From contig BDTT01000012.1 of NCBI GenBank assembly GCA_002897995.1, positions 1 to 64,000 of the forward strand: a DNA stretch of 64,000 nucleotides, written 5' to 3'. The position numbers and the translations under genes are program-made. Within the stretch, counting starts at the first letter, position 1. Each line of letters begins with the position of its first letter. Of this stretch, positions 4,035-34,359 are shown piece by piece. Origin of the DNA: a bacterium BMS3Bbin10. Lineage in GTDB: Bacteria; Pseudomonadota; Alphaproteobacteria; Rhizobiales; Methyloligellaceae. Under the pieces are notes generated by a model that saw only the letters and a program-made list of their open reading frames with translations, was not told the DNA's origin and searched no databases.

Positions 4035-4111
4035 GGGCCCGTAGCTCAACTGGTTAGAGCTGACGGCTCATAACCGTCCGGTTGCAGGTTCGAGTCCTGC
4101 CGGGCCCACCA
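4035..4111 (+). tRNA. tRNA with CAU anticodon (elongator Met or Ile2)
   Basis: 77 nt with encoded CCA. The acceptor stem GGGCCCG/CGGGCCC is perfectly paired; D arm GCTCAACTGGTTAGAGC, anticodon stem GACGG/CCGTC around loop CTCATAA (anticodon CAT), and T arm CAGGTTCGAGTCCTG are all canonical. The G1-C72 pair rules out the initiator tRNA, which has a mismatch there. Sequence alone does not separate elongator tRNA-Met from tRNA-Ile2, whose C34 is changed to lysidine. Confidence 0.93.
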
Positions 4112-5451: not shown

Positions 5452-6489
5452 ATGAGAACGCTTCGTATCCTTTTTATCTCAGACGGACGCCCGGGCCACT
5501 ACCATCTGGCCGAAGGGGTTATTGCCGCATTGGCGCGGCGTGCAGATGTCGAGACGCAGAGCGTGCTGATCAAGCGCCGCCGCATGGTGCCGGTGCGCTA
5601 TCTACGCGCGCTGGCGACGGCAAGCTGGTGCGCACCCGACCAGCTTTTGAAGATGGGCTATGGGCTCGATGCCGGTGAACTGAAAGGTGCCGATCTGGTT
5701 GTGTCATCTGGAGGGGAGACATTGCCCGTCAATCTCGCCGCCAGGCGGTTGCTCGGCGCGGAGAATATTTTCATCGGCTCGCGCCGCGGCATCGCCGCGC
5801 AAGAGTTCTCGCTGATCGTGAGTTCTTATGAGCGTCACGCTGACTTGCCATGCCATCTGGTGACGCTGAAACCGAGCGCGCTGGACCCCGATGCGCTGGG
5901 CCGGCCCGAGATCGTTCCCGCATTTGGCGCCGGCAACCCGCCCAAACTCGCCGGGCTGCTGGTCGGCGGGGACTCAGGTCTGTTCAAATACAGGCAGGAG
6001 GAATGGCGCGCGCTGTTTGCTTTTGCCAGCGAGGTTTCACATTCATGGGGCACGCGCTGGCTGGTCTCGACCTCGCGCCGCACGCCGCCGGAAATTGCGC
6101 AGGCGGCGTTTGACCTGGCCAAGGACAAGAGCGTGGTCGCTGATTTCATCGACTACAAGCTCGCCGGGCCGGGCACGCTGGAGAAGATTTTCAGCCGGGC
6201 AGATGTAATCGCGTGCTCAGAGGATTCAAGCACCATGATCTCAGAAGCGGTGTGGGCGCGGCTGCCGGTGGTGGGCGTATCGCCGGCCCATCACGCCTTC
6301 AAGCCCGAAGAGCGCGAATACCGGCAATTGCTGAAGCACAACAACTGGTCCCGGTTTTTGCCCATCGCGCAGCTGAGTGCAGATCGTTTCGGGGAGGCTC
6401 TGGGCGAGATCAAACCCCTTAGAGAAAATCCGCTTGAGCGGCTGGCGGGGGAGCTGGAAGCGCGGCTGCCGGATTTGTTCAGGAAATAA
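5452..6489 (+). CDS. ELM1/GtrOC1-family putative glycosyltransferase
   Basis: 345 residues. RILFISDGRPGHYHLAEGV at the N-terminus, an SSGGETLPVNLAAR segment near 82, and the C-terminal SRADVIACSEDSSTMISEAV with VVGVSPAHH match the ELM1/GtrOC1 family (formerly DUF1022). The family is named after a plant mitochondrial fission factor and in bacteria is placed among GT-B-like glycosyltransferases. The E.SS.MISEA segment corresponds to the nucleotide-sugar binding region of GT-B enzymes. It starts 3 nt after the stop of the class V aminotransferase gene, so translation may be coupled. Likely cytoplasmic or peripheral at the inner membrane; substrate unknown. Confidence 0.85.
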   Translation: MRTLRILFISDGRPGHYHLAEGVIAALARRADVETQSVLIKRRRMVPVRYLRALATASWCAPDQLLKMGYGLDAGELKGADLVVSSGGETLPVNLAARRLLGAENIFIGSRRGIAAQEFSLIVSSYERHADLPCHLVTLKPSALDPDALGRPEIVPAFGAGNPPKLAGLLVGGDSGLFKYRQEEWRALFAFASEVSHSWGTRWLVSTSRRTPPEIAQAAFDLAKDKSVVADFIDYKLAGPGTLEKIFSRADVIACSEDSSTMISEAVWARLPVVGVSPAHHAFKPEEREYRQLLKHNNWSRFLPIAQLSADRFGEALGEIKPLRENPLERLAGELEARLPDLFRK

Positions 6490-6511
6490 CCGGGCGGCGT
6501 AAAGGAAAAAA

Positions 6512-6546
6512 GAAGGGCCGCATCTCTGTCCGGGATGCGGCCCTTC
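6512..6546 (-). terminator. Intrinsic terminator, strong in the minus direction
   Basis: GAAGGGCCGCATC and its complement GATGCGGCCCTTC flank an 8-9 nt loop. Read on the minus strand the stem is followed by TTCTTTTTTCCTTT, a good U-tract. On the plus strand there is no U-run, though the stem may still help end the ELM1-type transcript. The only minus-strand unit feeding it is the 31-codon ORF at 6591-6686. Confidence 0.75.
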
Positions 6547-6590
6547 CATTGTCTTGATCGCGGCAAATCACCAAACCGCGTCAGCGCAGC

Positions 6591-6686
6591 TTATGCGCTA
6601 TCTAGATATCTGCAGAGGCAAACATCCAGGTCCACGCAGCCGACGACCGCGACGTTAGGGTTAAAACCCTTTTGACAATGAGACAC
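6591..6686 (-). CDS. Candidate 31-residue cysteine-rich small protein
   Basis: GTG start at 6686, TAA at 6591. The product reads MSHCQKGFNPNVAVVGC then VDLDVCLCRYLDSA: four cysteines, including a CLC motif and CVDLDVC. The ribosome binding site AAAGGAGGTGA is a full complement of the 16S rRNA tail, 7 nt from the start codon, much better than the sites of most genes in this window. A strong intrinsic terminator for the same strand begins 45 nt after the stop. Site, ORF and terminator thus form a compact transcription unit divergent from ettA. I do not recognise the family. The cysteines could bind metal or act in redox chemistry (inference). It could instead be a regulatory leader peptide or the coding part of a dual-function small RNA. 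Confidence 0.6.
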   Translation of the reverse strand: MSHCQKGFNPNVAVVGCVDLDVCLCRYLDSA

Positions 6687-6769
6687 TGGATCACCTCCTT
6701 TCGGTTGTTGATGAGAAGACGAGACCTTGAAGGGCTTCGCGCGATTTCGCAAGGGGTTAATCGGGCGGC

Positions 6770-6852: not shown

Positions 6853-8508
6853 ATGGCCACTCCCCAATATGTTTTCACCATGCAGCAGCTTGGCAAGACT
6901 TACCCCGGCGGCAAGCAGGTCCTCAAAGACATCACCCTGTCGTTTTTGCCGGACGCCAAGATCGGCGTTGTCGGCGTCAACGGCGCGGGCAAATCCACGC
7001 TCATGAAGATCATGGCCGGGCTCGATACGGAGTTCACGGGCGAGGCCTGGTCGGCGGAGGGCATCAAGGTCGGTTACCTGTCGCAGGAGCCCGAGCTCGA
7101 TGCGTCGAAAGACGTGATGGGCAACGCCATGGAAGGGGTTGCCGAAGCCCAGGCCATGCTGGAGCGCTACAACGAACTGGCGATGAATTATTCCGACGAG
7201 ACGGCCGAAGAAATGGCCGAGCTTCAGGACAAGATCGAAGCGCAGGATATCTGGGACCTTGAGTCCAAGGTAGAGATGGCCATGGATGCGCTGCGCTGCC
7301 CGGAAGGCGACGCGGACGTCGCCAAGCTTTCGGGCGGCGAGAAGCGCCGCGTGGCGCTGTGCCGTCTGCTGCTCGCCCAGCCTGGCATTCTGTTGCTGGA
7401 CGAACCCACCAACCATCTCGATGCGGAAACCGTCGCCTGGCTCGAAGGCCATCTCCAGGCCTATCGGGGCTGCGTCATCATGGTGACCCATGACCGCTAT
7501 TTCCTTGACAATATTACGACCTGGACGCTGGAGCTGGATCGCGGCCGGGGCATCCCCTATGAGGGCAATTACTCCTCCTGGCTGGAACAGAAAGCCAAGC
7601 GGCTGGCGCAGGAAGGCCGCGAGGAAGACGCCAAGCAAAAGACGATTTCGCGCGAGCTGGAATGGATTCAGGCCTCACCCCGCGCCCGGCAGGCGAAATC
7701 CAAGGCGCGTTTTCGCGCCTATGACGAGCTGCTTGCGGAAGCAGGAAAGCAGATGCACCGGCGCGCGCAAATCCAGATCCCGCCCGGGCCCCGGCTCGGC
7801 GATCTGGTGATCGAGACGCAAGGCCTGAACAAGGGGTTCGGCGACCGGCTGCTCATTGAAAATCTGGATTTCAAGCTTCCCCCCGGCGGCATCGTCGGCG
7901 TCATCGGCCCCAATGGCGCGGGCAAGACGACGCTGTTCCGCATGATTACCGGTCAGGAGGAGCCTGACGGCGGGACCATCCGTATCGGCGAGACGGTGAA
8001 GCTGGGTTATGTGGACCAGAGCCGCGATGCGCTCGATGACAAAAAGACCGTGTGGGAGGAAATCTCCGGCGGCAGCGATATTATTCAGCTCGGGCCGCGC
8101 GAGGTGCCGTCCCGCGCCTATGTGAGCTGGTTCAATTTCAAGGGCGGCGACCAGCAGCAGAAGGTCGGGCAGCTTTCGGGCGGAGAACGCAACCGGGTCC
8201 ATCTCGCCAATATGCTGAAATCGGGCTCGAATCTGCTGCTGCTCGATGAGCCGACCAACGATCTCGACACCGAAACCCTCGCGGCGCTCGAAGCGGCCCT
8301 GGAAGATTTCGCCGGCTGCGCGGTCATCATCTCCCATGACCGCTTTTTCCTCGACCGCATCGCCACCCACATGCTCGCCTTTGAGGGCGACAGTCACGTC
8401 GAGTGGTTCGAGGGCAATTTCGCCGACTATGAAGAGGACAAGAAACGGCGGCTGGGCGAGGATTCGATTATCCCGAAACGCATTAAATACAAGCGCTTCA
8501 GCCGGTAG
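6853..8508 (+). CDS. ettA: Energy-dependent translational throttle protein EttA (ABC-F ATPase)
   Basis: 551 residues with two ABC ATPase domains and no membrane segment. Domain 1: Walker A GVNGAGKS (about 37-46), signature LSGGEKRR, Walker B LLLDEPTNHLD. Domain 2: GPNGAGKT (about 355), LSGGERNR, LLLDEPTNDLD. The linker between them and the arm after Walker A of domain 1 match EttA, the ABC-F protein that binds the ribosomal E site and gates the first peptide bond according to ATP/ADP ratio. Length equals the usual 550-560. Monocistronic, followed by a hairpin at 8518-8546. The opposite-strand small ORF lies in its upstream region. Confidence 0.95.
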   Translation: MATPQYVFTMQQLGKTYPGGKQVLKDITLSFLPDAKIGVVGVNGAGKSTLMKIMAGLDTEFTGEAWSAEGIKVGYLSQEPELDASKDVMGNAMEGVAEAQAMLERYNELAMNYSDETAEEMAELQDKIEAQDIWDLESKVEMAMDALRCPEGDADVAKLSGGEKRRVALCRLLLAQPGILLLDEPTNHLDAETVAWLEGHLQAYRGCVIMVTHDRYFLDNITTWTLELDRGRGIPYEGNYSSWLEQKAKRLAQEGREEDAKQKTISRELEWIQASPRARQAKSKARFRAYDELLAEAGKQMHRRAQIQIPPGPRLGDLVIETQGLNKGFGDRLLIENLDFKLPPGGIVGVIGPNGAGKTTLFRMITGQEEPDGGTIRIGETVKLGYVDQSRDALDDKKTVWEEISGGSDIIQLGPREVPSRAYVSWFNFKGGDQQQKVGQLSGGERNRVHLANMLKSGSNLLLLDEPTNDLDTETLAALEAALEDFAGCAVIISHDRFFLDRIATHMLAFEGDSHVEWFEGNFADYEEDKKRRLGEDSIIPKRIKYKRFSR

Positions 8509-33837: not shown

Positions 33838-34256
<419 letters not shown>

Positions 34257-34359
34257 ATGATTATGGGCCGGTCCACGCGAAACCGTGGGCCGGCCTTCCA
34301 GTACATTACACGTGCAGAAAATGCCAGGAGACGGTGAGCTTTTATCAATTCCCACTATC

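Follow-up and report, generated by a model that had tools for sequence, protein, structure and literature searches.

A CC2171-type small RNA of Alphaproteobacteria with a conserved, probably translated short frame behind a full-length 16S-tail complement

The closest described relative of the element analysed here is the small RNA CC2171, Rfam family RF01867. The accessible part of the Rfam 15 report counts RF01867 among the structure-improved families, with one additional covarying base pair (PMC11701678), and MH_s33 of a Mesorhizobium survey corresponds to the same family according to the available text of that survey (PMC5596092). Literature searches of limited depth yielded no functional study of CC2171/RF01867, and the term CC2171 does not occur in the available portions of PMC11005374, PMC5988900 and PMC5082802. 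In Caulobacter, most ncRNA regions were reported as untranslated and two earlier-predicted ncRNAs as translated (available text of Schrader 2014, PMC4117421); CC2171 may lie on either side of this split.

The window (the whole stretch of 64,000 nt analysed, from the Methyloligellaceae bacterium BMS3Bbin10) harbors the element on its minus strand (Table 1). Read directly, this strand gives GAAAGGAGGTGATCCA, a GTG opening a frame of 31 codons, TAA, a hairpin and six T, with a spacing of 7 nt between GGAGG and GTG and with cysteines at residues 4, 17, 23 and 25 of the 31-residue reading. This confirms the anatomy that a first-pass annotation had described at 6512-6703: a full-tail ribosome site, a 31-codon GTG frame and a terminator, all on the minus strand. 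The program scan reports the terminator stem for the plus strand only, and the consensus promoter scan lists nothing at 6725..6753; by eye and uncounted, a better CTTGAC/CATANT-like pair occupies the same place in a number of relatives. Past the terminator lies a convergent gene (5452-6489), and the divergent gene on the other side is presumably ettA, a name that we adopt from the first-pass annotation. The position "opposite ettA" holds in the window, in five of seven congeners and in one further genome of the family (flanks of approximately 1.5 kb), while the neighbours in other clades are different. Elsewhere, the window also contains a class A RNase P RNA (33839-34259, plus strand) and a tRNA gene (4035-4108, plus strand).

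Table 1. Features of the minus-strand unit and of its divergent neighbour in the window
Feature	Positions	Strand	Basis
Putative RNA, ortholog of Rfam RF01867 (CC2171) by sequence	6506..6711	-	cmscan; inferred 5' end
Weak promoter-like pair CTTGCG, 17 nt, TCAAGG (candidate)	6725..6753	-	by eye
Extended Shine-Dalgarno (SD) site, 17-nt perfect complement of the 16S 3' tail, last base being the first G of the start codon	6686..6702	-	
GTG ORF, 31 codons plus TAA	6591..6686	-	direct read, protein search in relatives
CATTGTC, 5' arm of the helix closing the long hairpin, just past the start codon	6674..6680	-	
Insertion AAAGGGTTTTAACCCT, 16 nt, relative to other relatives in alignment A1; downstream reading +1	6657..6672	-	
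16S-tail-like segment GACCTGGATGTTTGCCTCT within the ORF, able to pair with the SD/start region	6614..6632	-	
GACAATG, 3' arm of the closing helix, adjoining the terminator	6547..6553	-	
Intrinsic terminator, stem 6512-6546 followed by T6 (6506-6511)	6506..6546	-	direct read, folds
ettA-like ABC-F gene, divergent neighbour, outside the unit	6853..8508	+	ORF list, flank comparison

A cmscan search matched RF01867 to positions 6514-6710 of the minus strand with 69.8 bits (E 2.3e-14), which is 5.2 bits below the curated gathering score of 75. Eight relatives have ettA and/or the convergent gene in common with the window; six of them pass the RF01867 cut-off (76.8-88.3), and the other two, L177 (72.2) and the sister locus L003 (71.2), fall below it. 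As most of the relatives with common neighbours pass, the window element is, by sequence comparison, an ortholog of CC2171, formally below the cut-off. All seven congeners retain the site and the start codon and match RF01867. Allowing at most one mismatch, the site with its start codon was found in all eight genomes of the genus and in 18 of the 30 family genomes searched. RF01867 was detected in 40 of 192 genomes of the class, six of them above the cut-off, and in one of 14 control genomes, that of Caulobacter vibrioides. The site pattern was present in 101 of 387 class genomes; in a phylum sample it occurred in 64 of 299 genomes, every one of them a member of the class, and the 186 genomes belonging to the phylum only gave no match. 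A reversed control pattern matched once (G685, phylum sample). A contig scan returned at least 117 loci, and a plasmid search gave only short matches, covering at most 18% of the query. Two genomes (G070 and G417) contain two site matches each, one of those in G070 being of the MSHC type (L025). Two contigs of Gemmatimonadetes MAGs (L051:7833-7852 and L082:169-188) display the same site, a TTG and 20-codon frames with an L-(S/T)-W-A-S core; these copies may reflect transfer, misbinning or an independent case.

The first in-frame stop falls at codons 14-36 in 153 of 155 loci, compared with 62 loci in one shifted frame and 59 in the other; this count covers 155 of 163 loci (at least 300 nt), with L172 and L173 left out as duplicates of L022 and L003. 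Because conserved bases near the start create shifted-frame stops in some clades, loci with such stops before codon 6 were also excluded, and the controls then became 62/132 and 59/99. The counts include probable chance or out-of-class matches where these were long enough (L051, L082, L122, L135 and L160); without them, the numbers are 152, 59 and 59 of 152. Each clade has a fixed frame length: 18 codons for the Rhodobacterales type (MSR...GVGT-type; all 19 loci) and for MSHG (28 of 31 loci), and 14 codons for the Bradyrhizobium type (all seven loci). Among 192 partly redundant loci, which include repeats of the same genomes, the start codon was GTG in 100, ATG in 87 and TTG in five (CTG was excluded by the search patterns), and the stop codon was TGA in 92, TAA in 61 and TAG in 39. 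As stop conservation is frame-specific, the stop position appears to be under selection, and since both start and stop positions are conserved, the short frame is probably translated. Conservation thus extends to the frame and its stop position, not to the peptide.

This pattern bears directly on the rival that follows the Rfam label, namely a purely non-coding, base-pairing sRNA with a merely incidental ORF, whose SD-like block serves as a seed or as a 16S antisense. The label sRNA, the strong fold, the T-rich terminator and the reported lack of translation of Caulobacter ncRNA regions (available text of Schrader 2014, PMC4117421) are all in keeping with it; however, the frame-specific stop, the interchange of ATG, GTG and TTG at the start, and the start codons found in a search that did not require them (described below) argue against it, and we regard it as unlikely.

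A search for the 16S tail found no 16S copy in the genome of the window, and the tail was visible in only two of 61 genomes; in the congener G004 it reads GGCTGGATCACCTCCTTTC, and the site is on this basis a 17-nt complement, with a predicted site/16S-tail duplex of about -29.7 kcal/mol. The 15-mer AAAGGAGGTGATCCA occurs once in the window's own genome, and its reversed control does not occur. The 15-mer GAAAGGAGGTGATCC, searched without a start-codon condition, was matched in 88 of 289 genomes, and 30 loci were fetched from a longer list of places. Twelve of these are antisense to 16S rRNA, 11 of them recognised by script and L237 by eye; the remaining 18 non-rRNA loci all open a frame of 20-39 codons at +0/+1, with an ordinary gene behind none of the 18. 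Within the sample examined, the full-tail site precedes short frames alone. Such a distribution could also be expected of a passive 30S decoy, which would bind the full tail, retain subunits through the hairpin past the start codon (starting at approximately +7) and thereby lower initiation; the strength of the predicted duplex and the lack of ordinary genes behind the 18 sites agree with this, but a decoy would have no need of a conserved stop codon, and the explanation seems to us quite unlikely.

In the window, the region between the start codon and the terminator has a predicted folding energy of -58.7 kcal/mol, as against -41.4 kcal/mol for dinucleotide shuffles (z -4.4). When every second locus was surveyed (86 loci), the same region had a median z of -3.3, with values below -2 in 66 of the 86. 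Single-sequence folds of 38 chosen loci, inspected by eye, mostly show a long rod with its closing helix about 7 nt past the start codon. The arms of this helix pair better with their own 5' or 3' partner than with arms swapped between clades, with p values inflated by relatedness. The place of the stop codon within the rod was ranked by the number of enclosing pairs in the 172 loci that remained once identical bodies, and loci lacking a terminator call, had been removed. The in-frame stop reached the 80th percentile or higher, near the middle of the rod, in 83 of these loci, versus 67 of 360 out-of-frame stops, a moderate trend toward a stop at the predicted apex.

The site may also be masked within the RNA. 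In alignment A1, which holds the window's group, RNAalifold pairs the SD/start region with CTGGAT...GCCTC inside the frame (columns 19-32 with 82-97), and the corresponding duplex in the window, between the SD/start region and the segment at 6614..6632, has a predicted energy of -16.0 kcal/mol (z -1.8). This helix and the closing helix cross, so they would be alternatives or form a pseudoknot. A1 offers no clear covariation because both helices are nearly invariant; its pair counts do not clearly exceed those of shuffles (16 to 151 of 500), and both-sided changes affect six of 26 pairs, all within the terminator. Both-sided changes were found at 20 of 47 pairs in A3 (MSHG) and at six of 29 in A2 (Rhodobacterales-type); the Rhodobacterales-type consensus fold has the SD paired with a downstream CACCTCCT-like segment. 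At p<=0.05, the SD pairs internally better than expected from shuffles in 66 of the 172 loci: 29/57 in MSHC, 12/38 in MSS, 12/19 in the Rhodobacterales type, 5/7 in the Bradyrhizobium type, 2/34 in MSHG and 6/17 in others. Masking as a universal feature was rejected, as the MSHG clade does not rise above shuffles, and by these fold models SD masking is a property of some clades.

The amino acids of the frame are weakly constrained. For loci of a single fixed length per clade, pN/pS was 1.30 (25 unique MSHG sequences), 0.82 (20), 1.21 (6) and 0.88 (5), and a second series gave 0.78 (5), 0.61 (3), 0.83 (3) and 1.03 (15 sequences). Variability peaks at third codon positions in two of the three small sets made up of close relatives, and not in the three largest sets. 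Indels before CTGGA leave the frame intact in 40 of 43 loci, and the amino acids vary between clades. Strong constraint on the amino acids is hardly compatible with the pN/pS values; ratios below 1 in several groups, the third-position variability and the keeping of the frame through most indels leave room for weak constraint. A protein search of 61 genomes listed 11 of them with matches, of which those in the own genome (E 3.4e-18) and in G006 (E 4.2e-10) are convincing and the others lie at E 0.11-0.64. Neither Pfam nor NCBIfam gave a match to the 31-residue protein at E<=10, and two longer readings of the frame had no Pfam match at the same threshold. Separately, the 14-codon frame of the Bradyrhizobium-type loci (L091, L101, L105, L109, L128, L150 and L155) ends in KRCHLAGIAR, with both DNA and protein near-unchanged.

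The cysteines of the window are explained in large part by an insertion. In alignment A1, the window has 16 extra bases past TGTCA and its sister L003 has 15. The CTGGA segment reads WTW(M/I)F in L162, L174 and L175 and AWMF in L003, and the frame of WTW(M/I)F also yields TWNL (L171, L177 and L178) and RDRIV (L176); the window reads this segment one frame over, giving CVDLDVCLC, a motif present in none of the seven congeners. Its distance between the start codon and CTGGA is 57 nt (offset 0), as opposed to 56 nt in L003 and 41 nt in L162 and L174 (offset 2). Among the 43 window-type loci with CTGGA (19 further loci lack it), the offset is 2 in 40, 0 in two including the window, and 1 in one, and the C-terminal half of the window frame is out of frame with most of the seven congeners. 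C17, C23 and C25 exist solely because the 16-nt insertion shifts the reading by +1, and they are found in none of the seven congeners, L176 having one different cysteine elsewhere; only C4 recurs, and its codon TGT is part of the closing helix CATTGTC. The insertion may be an assembly error, and the cysteine-rich peptide is, to judge from these relatives, probably a local accident.

These comparisons weigh on the first-pass suggestion of a metal-binding, redox or ribosome-related micro-protein. A strongly translated, cysteine-rich functional protein would account for the perfect SD, the dedicated terminator and the conserved start and stop, and three small sets of closely related sequences, with a pN/pS of 0.61-0.83 and in two cases with most variable third positions, would suit it. 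However, the homologs retain the site, the start and the stop position and keep neither the amino acids nor three of the four cysteines, so that the refuting condition named by the annotation itself goes against the protein; the C-terminal half is out of frame with most congeners, no Pfam or NCBIfam family was matched, and the synonymous/nonsynonymous comparison that the annotation had proposed (pN/pS 0.6-1.3) indicates that the amino acids are weakly constrained. The micro-protein, and with it the high translation of such a protein that the annotation read from the site, is accordingly left unsupported and we consider it very doubtful. The other suggestion of the same annotation, a dual-function RNA, came close, to which the present comparison adds the orthology with CC2171 and the conserved start and stop; translation itself is predicted.

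Downstream of 16 of the 19 Rhodobacterales-type loci (L042, L044, L049, L053, L055, L057, L059, L066, L072, L074, L081, L085, L110, L124, L144 and L147), a gene with a GGQ motif lies on the same strand, approximately 900 nt away in L044 and L066, and L097 and L224 likewise carry a relative of it; from the motif, we take this gene to be arfB-like. A leader peptide or attenuator for a neighbouring gene would accommodate these loci but is highly improbable, as the window gene past the terminator (5452-6489) is convergent, ettA is divergent and the neighbours change from clade to clade. Conserved neighbours were also considered as a clue to function and dropped, since they are conserved within clades and not between the main ones.

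Our preferred reading, to which we assign a probability of roughly one half, sees in the element a structured, CC2171-like small RNA that stands alone, serves as a bait for the 30S subunit and opens when it is translated; the peptide would be incidental. This reading is drawn from the homology to CC2171, the site that precedes short frames alone, the conserved frame and stop, the fold and the weak constraint on the peptide, which together suggest that being translated matters more than the peptide itself. At the 5' end, the complement of the entire 16S tail would be exposed or transiently hidden; on capturing the RNA, a 30S subunit would displace the internal pairing and initiate at the GTG. 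While translating the short frame, the ribosome would melt the 5' arm of the long hairpin, and it would be freed by the stop codon near the hairpin's middle, so that the RNA would have two forms, open when translated and closed when not. Translation as far as the middle of the hairpin would alter the fold or the lifetime of the RNA. Selection would maintain the docking site, the start codon, the stop position and the fold, with little effect on the peptide. We infer that the unit is transcribed and translated in this bacterium, that its fold is switched by translation and that the open form acts on something else, be it target RNAs or RNA lifetime. A broader and more speculative version, which we think unlikely as a whole, is a class-wide RNA family whose ligand is the free 16S tail: an imitation of the tail would mask the site in several clades, the 30S subunit would displace this imitation, the RNA would be locked open once its peptide-indifferent micro-ORF had been translated as far as the apex, the freed strand would regulate other transcripts, and the RNA would report the supply of free ribosomes.

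If the preferred reading of a translation-opened bait is correct, a family classed as non-coding RNA would in fact be translated and widespread, with a peptide that is hardly relevant, and, should translation be the signal, it would give simple access to the question of how ribosome supply might be sensed in Alphaproteobacteria. More generally, a strong ribosome site and striking residues are no guarantee that a short frame encodes a working protein. Our literature search found no published mention of the site and start codon as printed here, and the literature surveyed, in the parts available, does not describe the CC2171 family as having, after a full-length site, a frame that is conserved yet almost indifferent to its peptide.

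Several known systems share parts of this design. With RF01867 (CC2171), the window element has in common the conserved 5' block, the closing helix and the terminator; Rfam files that family as an sRNA, whereas the frame evidence presented here argues for a conserved micro-ORF. The rnTrpL of Sinorhizobium, as described in the available text of PMC10117765, is similarly a short RNA whose ORF, of 14 aa, is translated, but it is leaderless and attenuator-derived, while the window element has a full-length SD, stands alone and shows little conservation of the peptide. Type I toxin mRNAs (available parts of PMC6733600 and PMC7708055) resemble it in their self-sequestered SD, predicted here in some clades, and differ in that the RNA family of the window has no conserved peptide. 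Finally, the anti-SD sRNAs SisA-D of Caulobacter, a member of the same bacterial class, likewise contain an anti-SD-like segment; according to the accessible part of PMC12559287, they bear an anti-SD signature and act on mRNAs, whereas the RNA of the window carries an SD as well.
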